Part shown: in pieces, positions 27,380 through 39,426 of the stretch
Layout: each line of letters starts with the position of its first letter
How positions within the stretch are numbered: the first letter of the stretch is position 1
Assembly: GCA_002709295.1 (NCBI GenBank)
Contig: PAQL01000002.1
Location: forward strand, 1 to 64,000
Length of the DNA: 64,000 nt
Reading direction: 5' to 3'
Origin: Phycisphaerae bacterium
GTDB lineage: Bacteria; Planctomycetota; Phycisphaerae; Phycisphaerales; SM1A02
Position numbers and translations under genes: made by a program
The notes under the pieces: generated by a model
Told to the model about the DNA's origin: nothing
Database searches by the model: none
The model's input: the letters and a program-made list of their open reading frames with translations, nothing else

Positions 27380-28114
27380 TCAGTCGAACTCGTCTCCTCG
27401 GAAGGTGCTGGCCAGATAGGCGTTTCGAACCTCCGGATCGTTGATGATCGACCGGGGGTCGCCCTCCTTGAGGTTCTGTCCCTGATGAATGATGTACGCC
27501 CGATCGCAGATGCGGAGGGTCTGCTGCACGTTGTGGTCGGTGACCAGCATCGCGATCCCCTCGTCGGCGAGACGACGGACCTCGGCCTGCAGCTCCTCGA
27601 CGGTGTGGGGGTCGACGGCCGCGAAGGGTTCGTCCAGGAGCATCAGCCTCGGACGAGTCACGAGGGCGCGGGCGATCTCGAGGCGGCGTCTCTCTCCGCC
27701 GGAGCAGGTTCGTGCGAACTCCTTGCGCTTGTGGATGAGCCCGAACTGCTCCAGAAGCTCGTCGCAGCGTCGCTGTCGAGCGTCGCGGTCCAGGCCGCGG
27801 GTCTCGAGAATGGCGAGGACGTTCTGTTCGACGGTCAGTTTCTGGAAGACGCTGGGTTCCTGGCTGAGGTACCCCATGCCGTACTGGGCGTGGCGGTACA
27901 TCGGCTCGGTGGTCAGGTCCCGATCATCGAAGACGACCTTCCCCTCCTCGGGGGTGAGCATCCCGATGGTCATCCGGAAGGAAGTGGTCTTCCCGGCTCC
28001 GTTGCGGCCGAGGAGGCCGACGATCTCGCCGGCATCGACCTCGAATCCGACCCCGTCGACGACCTTCCGGCCACCGTAGCTCTTCTGCAGATCCCTGACT
28101 TCGAGCAATGCCAT
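27380..28114 (-). CDS. lptB: LPS export ATPase LptB
   Basis: A 244-residue ABC ATPase that powers extraction of LPS from the inner membrane with LptF/LptG. Walker A GRNGAGKTT, Q-loop region GMGYLSQEPSVFQKLTVEQNV (typical of LptB), signature CSGGERRR with Cys for the usual Leu, Walker B LMLLDEPFAAVD, H-loop VTDHN. The related branched-amino-acid ATPases share the fold, but the YLSQEPSVF segment favours LptB. It stands alone here; LptF/LptG are not in the window. A TACGAT box 6 nt before the ATG suggests a leaderless message. Confidence 0.92.
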   Translation of the reverse strand: MALLEVRDLQKSYGGRKVVDGVGFEVDAGEIVGLLGRNGAGKTTSFRMTIGMLTPEEGKVVFDDRDLTTEPMYRHAQYGMGYLSQEPSVFQKLTVEQNVLAILETRGLDRDARQRRCDELLEQFGLIHKRKEFARTCSGGERRRLEIARALVTRPRLMLLDEPFAAVDPHTVEELQAEVRRLADEGIAMLVTDHNVQQTLRICDRAYIIHQGQNLKEGDPRSIINDPEVRNAYLASTFRGDEFD

Positions 28115-31327: not shown

Positions 31328-31783
31328 TCACTCCGTGGTGTTGGAGAGGAAGGACTTCAGGGCCTCGTTCAATCTGGTGTTCGCTCGCGGCCATGGATGG
31401 TCCGCAAGCTCCTCGAGGGGGATCCATTTCCAGGGGCGTTCCGAGATCGTGGGATCTCCGTCGATGCTCCTGGCCAGAAGCAGATGAACGCGCACGTGCT
31501 TCTCTCTTGGTTGAGAGTGATCGATGTCCTCGTTGATCGCGATCGGCTCGATGATCTCGATGTCGATGCCGAGTTCTTCACGTGTCTCGCGCACTGCGGC
31601 CTGAGATGGCGTTTCGTTCTCTTCGATCTTGCCGCCGGGGAACTCCCACACGCCACCTCGAATGGCGCCTTTCGGGCGCCATGCAGCCAGGATTCTGGGC
31701 TTCTCGCCATCCGGTCGAGCATGATTCTCAAGGATCGCGGCCACGGCGACTTCGAGGGGTTCGGGGGGGAGCTCTTTGTTCAT
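31328..31783 (-). CDS. Nudix hydrolase, MutT-like
   Basis: A 151-residue Nudix enzyme. The complete Nudix box GKIEENETPSQAAVRETREELGI spans about residues 50-72; it is preceded by GGVWEFPGG, typical of MutT-type 8-oxo-dGTP diphosphatases that sanitise the nucleotide pool. The C-terminal part (ERPWKWIPLEELADHPWPRANTRL) also fits MutT. AAGGA lies just before the ATG. Substrate assignment rests on resemblance. Confidence 0.88.
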   Translation of the reverse strand: MNKELPPEPLEVAVAAILENHARPDGEKPRILAAWRPKGAIRGGVWEFPGGKIEENETPSQAAVRETREELGIDIEIIEPIAINEDIDHSQPREKHVRVHLLLARSIDGDPTISERPWKWIPLEELADHPWPRANTRLNEALKSFLSNTTE

Positions 31784-31838: not shown

Positions 31839-31867
31839 TTGACCCACCACTCTGAAGCCCGTAGTGT
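31839..31867 (+). promoter_or_regulatory. Promoter of a candidate non-coding RNA
   Basis: TTGACC (31839-31844), 17-nt spacer, TAGTGT (31862-31867): one of the best sigma-70-like matches in the window. No protein start follows closely; instead a structured stretch runs to a strong terminator at 32236. Confidence 0.6.
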
Positions 31868-31873
31868 CCAGAC

Positions 31874-32236
31874 GTCCCCTCCGAAGGGCCGCTTTGGAAC
31901 GGCACAGGATACGACACGGCTCTCAGGCGTGTCGATCTGCCGAGATCTGGCGGCAAAAACCTTCGAAACGGGGCCGATCTGGCCCGAAATGACGGCGATC
32001 TTCCTTGAAGAAGCCCTCGTCACGGCCAAATCGAGAAGAGTGGGTCCCTCTGGTGACCCGCCCGCAGGCCCCAGCGTCTCCCTCGGGGGGTGCTCGGGTC
32101 GGCTCGAGGCTGCATCCACACTCCTCCGGGGTGGGGATCCAGTCGGAACAACCTGTCTTCTTCGTGGCCGTGTGACTTCGGAATCACGGCCCGTGGACCG
32201 CCCGGTCGGGTCGGAGCGACCGGGCGGTTGTTTTTT
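31874..32236 (+). ncRNA. Candidate structured non-coding RNA, about 360 nt
   Basis: Bounded by a TTGACC-17-TAGTGT promoter and an intrinsic terminator. Hairpins visible by eye: CGACACG/CGTGTCG (31912-31934), TGCCG/CGGCA (31938-31955), GGGCC/GGCCC (31971-31985), GGGTC/GACCC (32042-32059), GGCCGTG/CACGGCC with an inner C-TTCG-G loop (32166-32191), then the terminator. It lacks RNase P, tmRNA, SRP and typical 6S signatures as far as I can tell. The downstream PagL-like gene has its own candidate promoter beyond the terminator, so this looks like an independent unit rather than only a leader. The exact 5' end is an estimate. Confidence 0.5.
32198..32236 (+). terminator. Strong intrinsic terminator of the candidate RNA
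   Basis: CCGCCCGGTCG (32198-32208) pairs perfectly with CGACCGGGCGG (32217-32227) over an 8-nt loop, followed by TTGTTTTTT. The T-tract shows it acts on plus-strand transcripts. The nearest upstream plus-strand protein gene ends 893 bp earlier, with a minus-strand gene between. Confidence 0.85.
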
Positions 32237-32324: not shown

Positions 32325-32960
32325 ATGTCGATCACGGGTTCGTCGATCTCTCGCCGTTGGATCGGCCTCCTGCTGGGTTCGTGCATCACGACGTCGGCCC
32401 AGGCTCAATACGACCCGCTGGCGATGCTGCAGGAGGCATCGAGCGCCGCATCGGCGGCCGAGCCCGTTCCCACAGCCGGTGAGCCGCAGGCATACGGTCG
32501 CCGGGGGTTCGTCGAATGGACGGTGGGGGGCATGGTCGGCGCTGAGTTCGGCATCACCGAGCTCGCCTTCGTCCGGAACCGGGTCGACTGGTTCGTCCAG
32601 GATCGATTCAGTCTCGGTCTGCAGTTCGAGGCGGGCGGCGCGTGGGTGGGGGGCACCGGGTACACGGGTTCCATCGGGGTGGCCAGCTGCGCCCGGTGGC
32701 ACTTTCTCGAACGGGAGAGCTGGACGCTCTTCGGCGAAGTCGGGATCGGACTCGCGTGGTTCGGATCGCCCCTTCCCGCCGGAGGAACCCGTCTCAACTT
32801 CTCTCCTCAGGCCGGGCTGGGGGCGACGTTCCGGATCGATGACCGGCTTCGACTCCATGTCGCCTGCGGCTGGTATCACCTCTCCAACGCGCGGACTTCG
32901 AACAGCAATCCCGGATTCGACGGTCTGGCGGTCCAGGTCGGCGTCGGCATCGGATTCTGA
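32325..32960 (+). CDS. PagL-like lipid A 3-O-deacylase / acyloxyacyl hydrolase family
   Basis: A 211-residue outer-membrane beta-barrel candidate. The signal peptide (RRWIGLLLGSCITTSAQA) supports ATG 32325. The C-terminal PagL signature is present: GWYHLSNARTSNSNPGFDGL, with the catalytic His 185 and Ser 187 of the family; D199 may stand where the family has its acidic triad member. It ends in Phe (VGVGIGF), typical of outer-membrane barrels. PagL removes a 3-O-acyl chain from lipid A. Other lipid A/LPS genes in the window support such a substrate. Confidence 0.75.
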   Translation: MSITGSSISRRWIGLLLGSCITTSAQAQYDPLAMLQEASSAASAAEPVPTAGEPQAYGRRGFVEWTVGGMVGAEFGITELAFVRNRVDWFVQDRFSLGLQFEAGGAWVGGTGYTGSIGVASCARWHFLERESWTLFGEVGIGLAWFGSPLPAGGTRLNFSPQAGLGATFRIDDRLRLHVACGWYHLSNARTSNSNPGFDGLAVQVGVGIGF

Positions 32961-32965
32961 GCGCG

Positions 32966-34027
32966 TCAGTCGGCTCCATATCCCGAGGGATTGGCCTGCA
33001 TCCATCGCCAGGCGGTCGCGACCGTCTCGTCGAGGTCGGTGAAACGCGGGCTCCAGTCCAGATCCCTGCCGATGCTCGACGCATTCGCGAAGAGGGTCGG
33101 TGGATCGCCGGGGCGTCGTGGTCCCATGGTCGCGGGGATGTCCCTGCCGGTGACCCGTCGACACGACTCGAGGACCTCTCGAACCGACCAGCCGTGTCCG
33201 AGTCCGACGTTGTAGCGACGCAGCTCACCGTCCTTCATCGCGTCCATGACGGCGAGGTGGGCATCCACGAGATCGACCACGTGGACGTAGTCCCTGATGC
33301 AGGTTCCATCGGGGGTGGGATAGTCGTCGCCATGGATGACGAGGGCCTCCCGCCGGCCTGCCGCCACTTCAAGGCAGATGGGAATCAGGTGCGTCTCGGG
33401 ACGATGATCCTCACCGACCCTGCCTTCGGGATCGGAACCGGCCACGTTGAAGTAGCGAAGCATCGTGGCGGCGAAGGGGGTGCCAGCGGTCCTTGCGGCC
33501 TCGACCCGGTCCTCGAGCATCCGCTCGACCATCAGCTTCGACCGGCCGTAGGGGTTGATCGGAGACTGGGGGCAGTCCTCGGCGATCGGAATCCGATCCT
33601 CGGGCGGTTCCCCGTAGGTCGCGCAGGTGCTCGAGAAGACGAATCTGGGGACACCAGCCTCCTCGACGGCCTGAAGAAGACGGCAGGCGCCGCCGGCGTT
33701 GTTGTCGTAGTAGAGGAGTGGTCGTTCCACGGATTCGCCGACGTAGGCGAAGGCGGCGAAGTGCATCACCACCTCGATGCGTCGATCCGTCAGCAGTTCG
33801 ACTGTTCCGGTTCGATCCGCGATCGAACCTTCGACGAACTCGAACTCGCCCGGGGCTCGTGAAGCCGCGCTCTCCAGGGCCCGGGTCGCACCCCGGTGCC
33901 CGCGGGAGAGGTCGTCGAGGCCGACCACCCGGCATCCCGACTCGATCAGCCGCATGCAGGCATGGGATCCGATGTACCCCGCGGCGCCGGTCACCAGCAC
34001 TCTTCTCATCGAATCCGGGGTCGTCAT
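32966..34027 (-). CDS. galE: UDP-glucose 4-epimerase
   Basis: Interconverts UDP-glucose and UDP-galactose for surface polysaccharides. A 353-residue short-chain dehydrogenase-type protein with NAD motif VTGAAGYIGSHACM, the SSTCATYGEP block with the active-site Ser/Thr, and YxxxK in NPYGRSKLMVERM. LRYFNVAGSDPEGRVGE and GDDYPTPDGTCIRDYVHV are GalE-specific. The start is uncertain: ATG 34027 has GGAG about 10 nt upstream; 34036 and 34009 are alternatives. Confidence 0.93.
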   Translation of the reverse strand: MTTPDSMRRVLVTGAAGYIGSHACMRLIESGCRVVGLDDLSRGHRGATRALESAASRAPGEFEFVEGSIADRTGTVELLTDRRIEVVMHFAAFAYVGESVERPLLYYDNNAGGACRLLQAVEEAGVPRFVFSSTCATYGEPPEDRIPIAEDCPQSPINPYGRSKLMVERMLEDRVEAARTAGTPFAATMLRYFNVAGSDPEGRVGEDHRPETHLIPICLEVAAGRREALVIHGDDYPTPDGTCIRDYVHVVDLVDAHLAVMDAMKDGELRRYNVGLGHGWSVREVLESCRRVTGRDIPATMGPRRPGDPPTLFANASSIGRDLDWSPRFTDLDETVATAWRWMQANPSGYGAD

Positions 34028-34116
34028 CGTCTTCATTGCTCCGAATCGTGAAGGTTCGAGCCGTCCCGGTCGCATGGTCGATGTCCATGGGATCCCGGAC
34101 GGATCTCGAGACCACG

Positions 34117-34124
34117 AGTATACG
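34117..34124. promoter_or_regulatory. Divergent -10 elements between galE and the DUF368 gene
   Basis: A GTATAC palindrome (34118-34123) reads as TATACT on the minus strand (toward galE) and TATACG on the plus strand (toward 34156). One site may serve both genes. Confidence 0.35.
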
Positions 34125-34155
34125 TCTCGAACCGCCGGCTCCCGGTGACCGGCCC

Positions 34156-35223
34156 ATGAACGACCGCCCAGAAGAAGCCGACTCCTCCGCGCCAGCCAGG
34201 CACCGGTCCCCCCGTGCGATCGGCGTCCTCCTGCTGATTCGAGCCGCGCTTGGCGGCGTCCTGATGGGCCTCGCCAATCTCGTGCCGGGGATCTCCGGCG
34301 GAACCATGCTCCTCGCCGCAGGTGTCTACCCGGAGTTCGTCGAAGCCGTCTCCGCAGCGACCAGGCTGGTTCGGCGGTGGCGTCCATGGATCGTGCTCGC
34401 TGCGGTCGCGATTCCCGCGGTGCTGGCGATCGGGCTTCTCGCGGGGACGATTCGGGATGCGGTGCTCGAGCATCGGTGGGTCGCCTACAGCCTGTTCATC
34501 GGTCTCACCCTCGGAGGAGCGCCCACGCTCCTCCGCATGATCCGACCCATCACCCGGGGCGCCGTCGTCTCCGCGATCATCGCCTTCTGCGGGATGGTCG
34601 CCCTCGCGATCCTCCAGGAGACCGGTGAGGGCGAGCCGGGACTGGCCGTGGGGGGGATTGCGGGACTGGGGATCGCCGGGTTCGCCGGCGCCTCGGCGAT
34701 GGTCCTGCCCGGAGTGAGCGGGGGATACCTGCTTCTGGTCCTGGGCCAGTACGTGCCGGTTCTCGATGCCATCAGTTCGTTCGTCGATGCCCTCCGATCG
34801 GGGGCGATCAGCGAGGTCCTGGCCGCGGCTCCACCGATCATCGCGATCGGGGTGGGGGTGCTTCTCGGGATCGTCCTCGTGAGCAATGGGGTGCGATGGC
34901 TGCTGCATCACCATCGGCATCCGACGCTGGGGGTGCTTCTGGGGCTGCTTCTGGGAGCCGTGGCCGGCCTGTGGCCGTATCGCACGCCGGTGGTGCCAGA
35001 GGTCGGATCCCATGTTCGAGGTGTTCTGATCGAGACCGAGCTCCAGGCCGCCGAGGTGCCTCTGAAGCATCGACCGACCGTGGGTTTCACGCCCTCGCCC
35101 CTCGTGGCCGCCGCGTCCATCGGGCTGATCCTCGTCGGGTTCGGCATGTCGATCGGCGTGTCGCGACTGGGTGGCGTCGATGAGGACGAGGAGGAGGATC
35201 CCCACCGCGGGCCACAAGCCTGA
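34156..35223 (+). CDS. DUF368-family polytopic membrane protein (PopT-like polyprenyl-phosphate translocase)
   Basis: A 355-residue membrane protein with about 9-10 helices. Two inverted copies of the family motif are clear: LANLVPGISGGTMLLAAGVY (about 40-60) and SAMVLPGVSGGYLLLVLGQY (about 177-197). DUF368 proteins were recently linked to recycling of undecaprenyl phosphate across the membrane, the lipid carrier for peptidoglycan and polysaccharides. The start is ATG 34156; the open frame upstream is antisense to galE. Its divergence from galE fits an envelope-polysaccharide role. The C-terminus is acidic (DEDEEEDP). Confidence 0.85.
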   Translation: MNDRPEEADSSAPARHRSPRAIGVLLLIRAALGGVLMGLANLVPGISGGTMLLAAGVYPEFVEAVSAATRLVRRWRPWIVLAAVAIPAVLAIGLLAGTIRDAVLEHRWVAYSLFIGLTLGGAPTLLRMIRPITRGAVVSAIIAFCGMVALAILQETGEGEPGLAVGGIAGLGIAGFAGASAMVLPGVSGGYLLLVLGQYVPVLDAISSFVDALRSGAISEVLAAAPPIIAIGVGVLLGIVLVSNGVRWLLHHHRHPTLGVLLGLLLGAVAGLWPYRTPVVPEVGSHVRGVLIETELQAAEVPLKHRPTVGFTPSPLVAAASIGLILVGFGMSIGVSRLGGVDEDEEEDPHRGPQA

Positions 35224-36070: not shown

Positions 36071-36430
36071 TCAGTCGGAATCATCATCCCCCTCGGGTGG
36101 GCGATACATGTGGAGTCGTCTGAAGGTCGAGAGGTCGATCAGGTCCCAGTCGAAGCTCCGGGCGATGCGAAGCAGCACGCCCTTGGAGATGTCCTCGTCG
36201 TCCTCGAAGAGGGAGAACTGGGTGATGGGCCCGGATTCGTCGCTGGGGTCGTAGGGGGGCAGGGTGACCCTGATGCCGGGGCCGTACAGCTCCTCCTCGG
36301 CAGCGCTTTCGGTCTCGGCGGAGGTGTTGAAGGGCAGCAGGGCGGCTCGAAGCTCGGCCCGGGTGCCCAGCGACTTCAGCTCCTCGGAGTCCGGGTCTTC
36401 ACGGTGTTGTTCGACGGCGTAGGTGGCCAT
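36071..36430 (-). CDS. Hypothetical acidic protein
   Basis: A 119-residue soluble, acidic protein. It has alternating strand/helix character, with GPGIRVTLPPYDPSDESGPITQ in the middle and a helix KGVLLRIARSFDWDLIDLSTFRRL before an acidic tail (PPEGDDDSD). No signal peptide or recognised motif. It lies 46 bp downstream of the receiver gene on the same strand and may be last in that operon. Confidence 0.6.
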   Translation of the reverse strand: MATYAVEQHREDPDSEELKSLGTRAELRAALLPFNTSAETESAAEEELYGPGIRVTLPPYDPSDESGPITQFSLFEDDEDISKGVLLRIARSFDWDLIDLSTFRRLHMYRPPEGDDDSD

Positions 36431-36476: not shown

Positions 36477-36875
36477 TCAGTCCTCGAAGAGGCCGTCTAG
36501 GGTCTCGATCAGTCGGATCATGGGGACCGGTTTGACCAGGTATGCGGAGACCCCGAGGTTCTCCGCGTAGGCATGATGTCTCCGTCCCTGGTTCGCCGTG
36601 ACCATCACGACGGGGGTTTCGGGTTGTTCCTCCCGGATCTTCTCCAGGACCAGGAACCCCGATCTGCGGGGGAGCATCATGTCCAGCACGACGCCATCAG
36701 GGTTCGAGGCGAGGAAGATCGAGACGGCGGTGTTTCCATCCTCGGCCTCGAGCACCTCGGCGCCCTCGGCCGTGAGGGCGAGGGCGGTGGAGGCGAGGAT
36801 GTCCGGATCGTCGTCCACGACGAGGATCGTTCGTCCTTCGAACCGGCCTCCGTTCGAGACTCCTTCGTCGCTCAT
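36477..36875 (-). CDS. Stand-alone response-regulator receiver protein
   Basis: A 132-residue REC domain without output domain. ILVVDDDPDI holds the acid pair, VVLDMMLPRRSG the phospho-acceptor Asp, VVMVTAN the switch Thr and YLVKPVP the Lys. The ATG at 36875 overlaps the stop of the upstream acyltransferase (ATGA), so this regulator is coupled to a lipid A gene, an unusual pairing. No histidine kinase is adjacent. Confidence 0.87.
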   Translation of the reverse strand: MSDEGVSNGGRFEGRTILVVDDDPDILASTALALTAEGAEVLEAEDGNTAVSIFLASNPDGVVLDMMLPRRSGFLVLEKIREEQPETPVVMVTANQGRRHHAYAENLGVSAYLVKPVPMIRLIETLDGLFED

Positions 36876-37921
36876 GAGAGAGGGGCTCCGGGTTCTCCGG
36901 TGTCGAGGAGGCGACTCATCGTCTCGTCGTCCATCCACGGCAGTTCCTCGAGCTTTCGACGGACCGAGGCCGGCATGGGCTTGCCCGACTCCTCCCACCT
37001 CGGCCGGCTCTTCCATCGACGATGGATCCAGAGGTACTGCTCCGGTGCCTTCCTGACCACCTGCTCGAGACTGCGATTGAATCTCGCGGTGATGTAGAAG
37101 AGCGGATCCCGGGCGTCGGTCCAGTCGTCGGGGCCGAACCGATCGGTGAGCTCGATGCGATAGTGGAAGGAATCCGGGCTGGTCCGTCTCGCGGTCCCGA
37201 CGATGATCGGGATGTCGTAGCGCATGGCCAGGAGGCCGATCGACTTGTAGCTCGAGGCCATGCGTCCGAACCACGGGACGAACAGGCCGCCCCGACCGGC
37301 ATTCTGATCGGCGATGAAGGCGATCCGTCGATCCGCGGGGTCGTCGCTCTTGACCAGTTCCTTGATTCGATCCGAGGCGCCCCACTTGGTCAGGACCCGA
37401 AGGCCTCGGGCTTCGCGAAGTCCCAGGACCCAGTTGTAGAGGTGGGGGTTGTCCAGCGGGCGGGCCAGGGCGGTCATGGGGAACCCGACGGTGGCCAGCG
37501 TGAAGCCGAGCAGCTCCCAGTTGCCCGAATGTCCGGTGATCAGGATCGCCGGTTCGTCGGACATCAGAAGCCTGGCGCCCTCCGAGAACTCGTCGAGTTC
37601 GACGTGGTCCTGCCAGCTCCAGGGGTTGATCAGCCGGGGCATGGCCATGGCATCGACGAGGAAGACCCGGAACATGTATCGGATCGACTCTCTCGCGATC
37701 CGATCCACCTCGGATTCGGAAAGTTCGGGCATCGCCTGACGGATGTGCGACTTCGCCCGCTCGGTGCGTGCGGCACCCCATCTTCCGAAGATCGAACCGA
37801 TCAGGGAGGCGGTCCGGAGGTTCTGGCTCGGCTCGACGCACTGCATCGCCGCGGCGAGGGCGCGGAGCGGCACGTACTCGGCGAGGTGCTGGAGCCTCGT
37901 CGTCAGCGAGCGGGTCGGCAT
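36872..37921 (-). CDS. Lipid A (LpxL/HtrB-type) acyltransferase
   Basis: A 349-residue late acyltransferase of the lysophospholipid/lipid A family, which adds a secondary acyl chain to lipid A or a related lipid at the inner membrane. The HX4E-type catalytic motif is HSGNWE (about residue 130); ADQNAGRGGLFVPWFG and the RWKSRP end fit the family. The start at 37921 (MPTRSLTTRLQ) removes a Pro/Arg-rich open extension. A 13-bp perfect stem terminator of the preceding gene lies just upstream. It is coupled to the receiver gene by ATGA. Confidence 0.85.
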   Translation of the reverse strand: MPTRSLTTRLQHLAEYVPLRALAAAMQCVEPSQNLRTASLIGSIFGRWGAARTERAKSHIRQAMPELSESEVDRIARESIRYMFRVFLVDAMAMPRLINPWSWQDHVELDEFSEGARLLMSDEPAILITGHSGNWELLGFTLATVGFPMTALARPLDNPHLYNWVLGLREARGLRVLTKWGASDRIKELVKSDDPADRRIAFIADQNAGRGGLFVPWFGRMASSYKSIGLLAMRYDIPIIVGTARRTSPDSFHYRIELTDRFGPDDWTDARDPLFYITARFNRSLEQVVRKAPEQYLWIHRRWKSRPRWEESGKPMPASVRRKLEELPWMDDETMSRLLDTGEPGAPLS

Positions 37922-37979
37922 GGTGGCGTCATCGGACACGGTGTCGCGGATTCGTATCGGAGCCCGGGGAAGCGGGTGG

Positions 37980-38023
37980 CTGGAGGAGGAAAGGACCCGG
38001 ACCGGGCGAGCCGGTCCGGGTCC
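37980..38023 (-). terminator. Intrinsic terminator after the coiled-coil membrane protein
   Basis: Reading the minus strand, GGACCCGGACCGG pairs perfectly with CCGGTCCGGGTCC (38023-37993) over a 5-nt loop, followed by TTTCCTCCTCC. It lies 32 bp after the stop at 38056. Confidence 0.8.
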
Positions 38024-38055
38024 TGGATTCGCTCGCGCCTTTCCGTGAGGTGATC

Positions 38056-39426
38056 TCAGCGGTTGGTCATGCCCGTGAGGGTTTGGAACCGGTTCCAGTT
38101 GAGCACGGGGATCTGTGCCTGCGAGGCCTGGTCGAAGAGTCGGTTGTACTGCTCGAGGGCCTCGCGCTGCTGGAGGTAGGCACGAAGTTCGGCCTGGGTG
38201 TTGTCCGGAGGCAGGGGGGCGGGCATCGGCGGCTGTTCGCCGAGGACCAGGAAGTCGAGGTCGCCGGTCAGCTTGTCGCCCTCGACGAGTTCTCCGCCCC
38301 ATTCCATGACCCGTCGTCGGACGTAGTCGGCTTCGGCGACCGAGATCTTGCCGTCACCGTCGATGTCGAACTGGCCGTGGACCAGGAACTTGAACCGGTA
38401 GTCGGGGTTGAAGACCGCGTTGGCGATCACGTCGTCCTTGACGACCGGACGGCCCTGGATCTCACGGGTGATCCGGGCCGCCGAGGTGTCGGCGTTGACC
38501 CGGATGATCTCGACGCTGGCCTTGCCGCGGACATACTCGCCGGTTCGCGGGTCGGGTCGGATCCCGGAGGCGTCCTCGTAGACCTCGAAGGTCATGCCGG
38601 GAACGACTCGGTCGTTCCGTCCGAGGTCGATGAAGACCTGGCCGCCGGAGCCGGGGACGCTGATGACCCGACCGTCGACGAGCTCGGCGGGGCTCTGTGG
38701 CTTGACCCGGTAGTTCTCCGTCTTCTTGCGGAGCTCGTCGATCTGGGCTCGGAAGACGCTGTTCTCCTGGTTCGCCTGATCGAGGCGTCCCTGGAGCGTC
38801 GCAAGACGGTTGCGGTAGTCGCGATCGAGCTTGGCCCGGCTGTCGTCGATCGAGGCGATGGCGTCCTCGACCTCGGTCTGGTAGCGGCCGGCCGCGACCT
38901 TGTAGCCGTCGAACTCCTTCTCGACCTGGGCGACCTTCTCATCGCTCATCGTCTCGGCCTTGTCGGCGCGGTCGCGGAGCTCCTGGTTGCCGGCCTGGGT
39001 GCTTGCCAGCTGCCGCTGCAGGCTCGACACGGTGTTGTTGGTGGAGGTGAGCTCACGACGAAGGTCGGTCATCGCATTGGAGACGACGTCGGTGTCGGAG
39101 AGCCCGAGGTTGGATCGCATCTCCGCGATGCCGGCTCCGGGGTTGCCGGTCACGAAGGTCGCGACCTCGGAGCGACGATCCTCGAGCATTCGGTAGAGCG
39201 ACTTGCGATCCTGCTTCGCGGCGTCCATGAGCCGTTCGAAGGACTCGGTCTTCTCCGAAGAGGCCACGAAGGCGCTCAGGTCGGCCTTGGCCTGGGCTTC
39301 GTTCTCGAGGGCCTCGGCCTTGCCCGTGTACATCATGAACGTGATCGTCAGAAGGCCGACGTTGCAGACGACACTCACGACGAGGGCGACGATCACGCCG
39401 GTACCGGCACCAGATCCTCTAGCCAT
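38056..39426 (-). CDS. Membrane-anchored coiled-coil protein with BRCT-like, EF-hand-containing C-terminus
   Basis: A 456-residue protein. One N-terminal helix (about 10-33, GVIVALVVSVVCNVGLLTITFMM) is followed by a long coiled coil (about 35-235) with heptad-like Leu/Ala and many charged residues. A beta domain (about 245-345) contains VISVPGSGGQVFIDLGRND and VVPGMTFEVYED. The last 112 residues resemble a BRCT domain: FLVHGQFD, then VRRRVMEWGGELV, DLDFLVLGEQP, and ALEQYNRLFDQASQAQIPVL. An EF-hand-like loop DIDGDGKISVAE is inserted after the first strand. The family is not one I can name. It could scaffold an envelope complex; cytosolic or periplasmic side is undecided. Confidence 0.8.
   Translation of the reverse strand: MARGSGAGTGVIVALVVSVVCNVGLLTITFMMYTGKAEALENEAQAKADLSAFVASSEKTESFERLMDAAKQDRKSLYRMLEDRRSEVATFVTGNPGAGIAEMRSNLGLSDTDVVSNAMTDLRRELTSTNNTVSSLQRQLASTQAGNQELRDRADKAETMSDEKVAQVEKEFDGYKVAAGRYQTEVEDAIASIDDSRAKLDRDYRNRLATLQGRLDQANQENSVFRAQIDELRKKTENYRVKPQSPAELVDGRVISVPGSGGQVFIDLGRNDRVVPGMTFEVYEDASGIRPDPRTGEYVRGKASVEIIRVNADTSAARITREIQGRPVVKDDVIANAVFNPDYRFKFLVHGQFDIDGDGKISVAEADYVRRRVMEWGGELVEGDKLTGDLDFLVLGEQPPMPAPLPPDNTQAELRAYLQQREALEQYNRLFDQASQAQIPVLNWNRFQTLTGMTNR

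Follow-up and report, generated by a model that had tools for sequence, protein, structure and literature searches.

A predicted small RNA family of the Phycisphaerales with an invariant loop in its terminator hairpin

Introduction

What is encoded between a divergent NUDIX gene and a PagL-like gene in the DNA of a Phycisphaerae bacterium (assembly GCA_002709295.1, contig PAQL01000002.1)? We analysed 64,000 nucleotides of this contig, hereafter the window, for which a sequence-only reading had proposed that the gap holds an independent non-coding transcription unit of about 360 nt, possibly a new RNA, and had named a cis-acting leader of the PagL-like gene as the main alternative. To our knowledge, Planctomycetota have so far yielded few small RNAs, and in the open-licence papers on planctomycete and Phycisphaera small RNAs we found no description of this RNA and none from Phycisphaerales.

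Architecture of the locus

The features of the locus are collected in Table 1. Both hexamers of the promoter described in the sequence-only reading, and the spacer between them, are present where they had been placed, and its perfect 11-bp terminator stem with a T-tract was confirmed by the sequence and by a terminator scan. The 5' end of the RNA was inferred from the position of the promoter. A consensus scan of the RNA strand found the terminator only, the window promoter being too weak for it. With the pattern TTGA[CT]N-N16-18-TAN3T, the same element, of the TTGAC-N18-TACTGT type, was recovered at 74 of 100 homologous loci but in only 1 of 480 control stretches. Its spacing is fixed, at 18 in 73 of the 74 promoter-bearing loci and at 17 in the window.

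Table 1. Coordinates of the predicted RNA, its parts and its immediate neighbours in the window
Feature	Position	Strand	Basis
Promoter: -35 TTGACC 31839-31844, 17-nt spacer, -10 TAGTGT 31862-31867	31839..31867	+	read in sequence; TTGACCCACC identical in sister species; fixed spacing at homologous loci
Predicted small RNA, about 362 nt here	31874..32236	+	conserved promoter and terminator, fold z
5' extension, structured, unconserved	31874..32151	+	fold z; poor alignment with sister species G001 and within genus g51
Conserved 3' module (~85 nt)	32152..32236	+	match to covariance models R1 and R2
CUUCUU motif, before hairpin 1	32157..32162	+	alignments
Hairpin 1, stem GGCCGUG/CACGGCC	32166..32191	+	covariation
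Terminator hairpin, perfect 11-bp stem	32198..32227 (arms 32198-32208 / 32217-32227)	+	terminator scan, covariation
Terminator loop octamer GUCGGAGC; last C closes the stem	32210..32217	+	invariance
T-tract, intrinsic terminator	32228..32236	+	sequence, terminator scan
NUDIX (MutT-like) gene, divergent, outside the RNA	31328..31783	-	PF00293, 5.7e-21
Downstream gene for a PagL-like outer-membrane lipid A deacylase, outside the RNA	32325..32960	+	PF09411, 3.2e-15

The whole RNA folds better than its dinucleotide shuffles (z -4.5), and so does the 5' part that precedes the conserved module (z -3.5); eight control 277-base pieces of the window gave fold z values from -1.5 to +1.0. In line with the view that no coding-like frame uses the stretch, the open frame that covers it has no Pfam family. 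This long frame, which continues into pagL, has not been retained in the sister species, whose pagL frame begins only past the terminator. Over the window, Rfam 15 gave no match at gathering thresholds. A search of the region at a permissive threshold yielded nothing credible, the best match on the RNA strand (ncS037) reaching 23.9 bits against a gathering score of 112, and 22 homologous loci (seven, and fifteen more from the family and beyond) gave no match either. The Rfam match that would have taken away the novelty of the candidate was thus not found.

A conserved module at the 3' end

A DNA search with the whole 461 bases matched only the terminator in relatives, and synteny with the NUDIX gene then showed that these matches mark the same locus. 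The sister species G001 has the same order of NUDIX gene (minus strand), intergenic region, PagL-like gene and GalE. At the start, TTGACCCACC, and at the terminator the two species hardly differ, and the intervening stretch aligns poorly. In other genera of the family, the terminator matches lie ~200-500 bases from a divergent NUDIX gene, and the loci carry TTGACC promoters and a module composed of CTTCTT, a hairpin and the terminator. It was the comparison of this module and the terminator across genera that revealed the conserved RNA as the last ~85 bases. Of the proposed ~360-nt unit, the independent, non-coding character stands, while its conserved extent shrinks to the 3' end. Likewise, of the five hairpins read in the window, the one at 32166-32191 is the conserved and covarying hairpin 1, whereas the other four (31912-31934, 31938-31955, 31971-31985 and 32042-32059), although legible in the sequence, do not align in relatives.

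Predicted RNA lengths at the family loci have a median of 85, most homologues being about 85 nt long, and in genus g36 the predicted transcript is barely longer than the conserved module. Predicted lengths above 250 come largely from genera g1 and g51, and the ~360-nt form is, by these predictions, special to the source genus and one other. We treat the additional 5' part as a putative lineage-specific extension, because it can hardly be aligned between species.

From a hairpin alignment made with N padding and trimmed loops, we worked with a covariance model of the 3' module (R1) and a second model rebuilt from 100 matches (R2). Of the 181 genomes of the family, 121 carried the module according to R1 (E <= 0.01) and 131, covering 40 of 45 genera, according to R2 (E <= 0.001), usually with one copy per genome. 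CUUCUU precedes hairpin 1 in most family members and has been lost in some genera.

Single copy and wide conservation are also what a divergent housekeeping RNA (6S, RNase P, SRP or tmRNA) would show. The sequence-only reading had recognised no signature of these RNAs. We consider this explanation extremely improbable, as Rfam returned no match to any of them, permissive thresholds included. RF00013 (6S RNA) has no match at the locus, and the 6S-like RF00013 matches of two relatives (G003 and G012) sit on contigs other than the one bearing the RNA. RNase P and tmRNA, moreover, do not fit an architecture of about 85 nt and two hairpins.

The sequence-only reading had looked to alignment in relatives for compensatory changes that would support an RNA, and such changes were found in the stems. 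Among 89 distinct sequences, 20 of the 21 base pairs have changed on both sides, as have all 10 model pairs of hairpin 1, and covariation reaches 0.550 against 0.215 in shuffled and at most 0.106 in slid alignments, in an alignment that is itself fitted to the model. Because of this fit, we recounted pairing without gaps, anchoring the sequences on the loop octamer only, and found 91.8% of positions paired in register, compared with 31-43% when the register was shifted. No base of the octamer GUCGGAGC differs among the 71 distinct family sequences examined, although the search model partly selects for this loop. The fixed UCGGAGC loop sits inside a variable terminator stem.

The terminator is the best conserved part of the locus, as would be expected if nothing more than a terminator or DNA element had been kept, with no functional RNA. 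However, the promoter is dedicated and held at fixed spacing, hairpin 1 covaries by itself, the invariant loop lies within a variable stem and, where the divergent NUDIX gene lies upstream, there is no gene on the RNA strand to terminate; a bare terminator or DNA element is accordingly highly improbable. In its sequence, the locus shows traits of an independent intergenic sRNA gene, namely a promoter, a terminator, non-coding status and a conserved secondary structure, and we conclude that it is almost certainly an independent small non-coding RNA gene.

Neighbouring genes and the pagL leader question

In 76 of the 100 family loci, the pagL-like gene lies downstream on the strand of the RNA; in others it lies elsewhere. 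The former arrangement would suit a cis-acting leader of this gene (an attenuator or riboswitch-like element) whose terminator is read through conditionally. A constant same-strand position 5' of pagL, however, was not found. The gene is on the opposite strand at L116, L119, L131, L141 and L144, lies beyond the NUDIX gene in nine loci of genus g48, and elsewhere is more than 1.2 kb downstream, which leaves room for a gene between. Furthermore, G119, G120, G007 and G024 keep the RNA with neither pagL nor NUDIX within about 8 kb, and no pagL occurs in the examined flanks of the loci from other families. Since the RNA persists in lineages with an inverted, displaced or missing pagL, we regard it as independent of pagL, and the leader that had been the main alternative as very unlikely.

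The most widely kept neighbour is the divergent NUDIX gene, present in 61 of the 100 family loci. In several genera (L111, L092, L095, L114, L115, L131, L141 and L144), TAGCGT stands ~10 bases ahead of the probable start codon of pagL and is possibly a promoter giving a leaderless mRNA.

In the window, lptB (27380-28114), the pagL-like gene, galE (32966-34387) and a lipid A acyltransferase gene (36872-38302) all lie within 11 kb. Genus g6 accounts for two of the four genomes without pagL or NUDIX, and there the RNA has genes for an LptB-type ABC ATPase and for a lipid A acyltransferase beside it, as assigned to families on L219; part of this envelope and lipid A neighbourhood is thus retained there without pagL. 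A conserved protein of ~117-119 aa with the motif LYGPGIR... and no Pfam family is encoded at 36071-36430 (minus strand) in the window, at L219:7758-8111 and at L217:9537-10118, and adjoins a response regulator and a lipid A acyltransferase.

Relatives in other families of the order

In a search of the order, R2 also picked up relatives in families f2, f4, f3 and f6, less strongly yet still convincingly. All 22 order-level loci examined have UCGGAGC in the terminator loop and a hairpin before the terminator, most have a TTGAC-type promoter, and 13 have the divergent NUDIX gene beside the RNA. Covariation across the five families (48 sequences) was 0.606, whereas shuffled alignments gave 0.180 and slid ones no more than 0.103. 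In the f4 homologues (L246 and L247), CUUCUU does not precede hairpin 1 but separates it from the terminator, and these loci have no NUDIX gene within about 8 kb.

Outside Phycisphaerales, R2 gave no convincing match. The weak R1 and R2 matches in other classes look like ordinary terminators or chance palindromes, and a few weak matches within the order (G617, G496, G495, G034, G778, G238 and G336) appear to be the same. In a collection of named genomes, sequences identical to the loop and inner stem fell in MAGs labelled Phycisphaerales or Planctomycetota, with some labelled otherwise, for example Singulisphaera. Seven further exact matches fell in other phyla (Nocardia, haloarchaea and others). 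None of them has the promoter or CUUCUU, and they were dismissed as chance; six of the seven fall inside long open frames.

Taken over these genomes, the comparisons describe a predicted small RNA family that is uncatalogued in Rfam, spans Phycisphaerales, is single copy in most of one family and is traceable in four related families.

Possible modes of action

Hfq was detected in none of 21 relatives, control genomes being positive, and we therefore rejected a reading as an Hfq-dependent trans-acting sRNA. CsrA was found in 20 of the 21, usually in two copies per genome (in G000, the homologues are at C2:105129-105284 and C42:50172-50339).

The best explanation as a whole, to which we give a probability of roughly 0.65, is an independent sRNA gene whose product regulates in trans, independently of Hfq, via the UCGGAGC loop. 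The RNA would be transcribed from its own promoter to the intrinsic terminator, whose hairpin would stabilise it, and would then act as a regulator in trans without Hfq. Its exposed UCGGAGC loop would do so in one of two ways: by pairing with a few mRNAs as an antisense seed, or by binding a protein, for example CsrA. What points to the loop is that its bases are the most constrained of the RNA. Action as a trans-acting regulator, taken by itself, is reasonably probable; the loop as an antisense seed is a tentative proposal, and the loop as a protein-binding site is rather doubtful. We suggest, again tentatively, an order-wide Hfq-independent RNA of the Phycisphaerales whose functional part would be its terminator loop UCGGAGC, read by a single RNA or protein partner dedicated to it, and which would have been kept since an ancestor of at least five families.

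Near the locus, the pagL and NUDIX genes included, complements of the loop were not enriched, with 57 occurrences of CTCCGAC against 52 expected and 51 of GCTCCGA (GCUCCGA) against 67 expected. Nor was the loop complement enriched at start codons, guessed by simple rules, when 0.4 Mb of each of the genomes G011 and G060 was searched. The complement of CUUCUUCG, CGAAGAA, was overrepresented near the locus (65 against 22 expected); we set it aside as a target signal, since the occurrences are mostly outside both genes or antisense to pagL, often at one coding position. Cell-envelope genes are plausible targets, because in its own family the RNA sits in an lptB, pagL, galE and lipid A acyltransferase neighbourhood. 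This envelope-gene context was not seen in the other families, in which the NUDIX gene is the one neighbour found again.

Another way to view the loop is as a site for CsrA, its GGA either titrating CsrA or letting CsrA control the RNA. The GGA is invariant and lies in an exposed hairpin loop, UCGGAG is closed by G-C in several families, and the frequency of CsrA in genomes with no Hfq found would be in keeping with such a role. Known CsrA sponges, however, bear many GGA hairpins, whereas several conserved ones were not found here, the single conserved GGA being that of the terminator loop, and the bases around it (U, C, G and C) do not vary either, beyond what GGA alone needs. We thus judge a CsrA-binding RNA unlikely and retain the Hfq-independent trans regulator as the preferred reading.

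The predicted RNA is ancient, under strong constraint and, with few exceptions, present once per genome, and Hfq was not detected in its hosts; for these reasons it should be a good entry point to riboregulation in these bacteria. The fixed loop in a freely changing stem marks which bases to mutate.

Comparison with known systems

In Pseudomonas aeruginosa, the small RNA Sr006 base-pairs with the pagL transcript and increases PagL (review, PMC9308961). A small RNA is tied to a lipid A deacylase gene in both cases, which makes for a loose parallel: Sr006 acts by pairing with pagL mRNA, whereas here complementarity to pagL is not enriched, the RNA adjoins pagL in one family only and no Hfq was found. 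With RNAs of the CsrB/RsmY type, the candidate shares a GGA in an exposed loop and a genome that encodes CsrA, but differs in the singleness of its conserved GGA and in the fixity of the surrounding bases. The Rhodopirellula-1 motif, given without an Rfam number, is also a candidate structured RNA from Planctomycetes, but has been reported for Proteobacteria as well (Weinberg 2010, PMC2864571), whereas, compared by that published description only, our covariance model gave no convincing match outside Phycisphaerales. Finally, although the terminator loop is the most conserved part here and the genomes have no detectable Hfq, the layout is like that of intergenic trans-acting sRNAs, with a promoter of its own and a C/U-rich CUUCUU followed by a hairpin and an intrinsic terminator.
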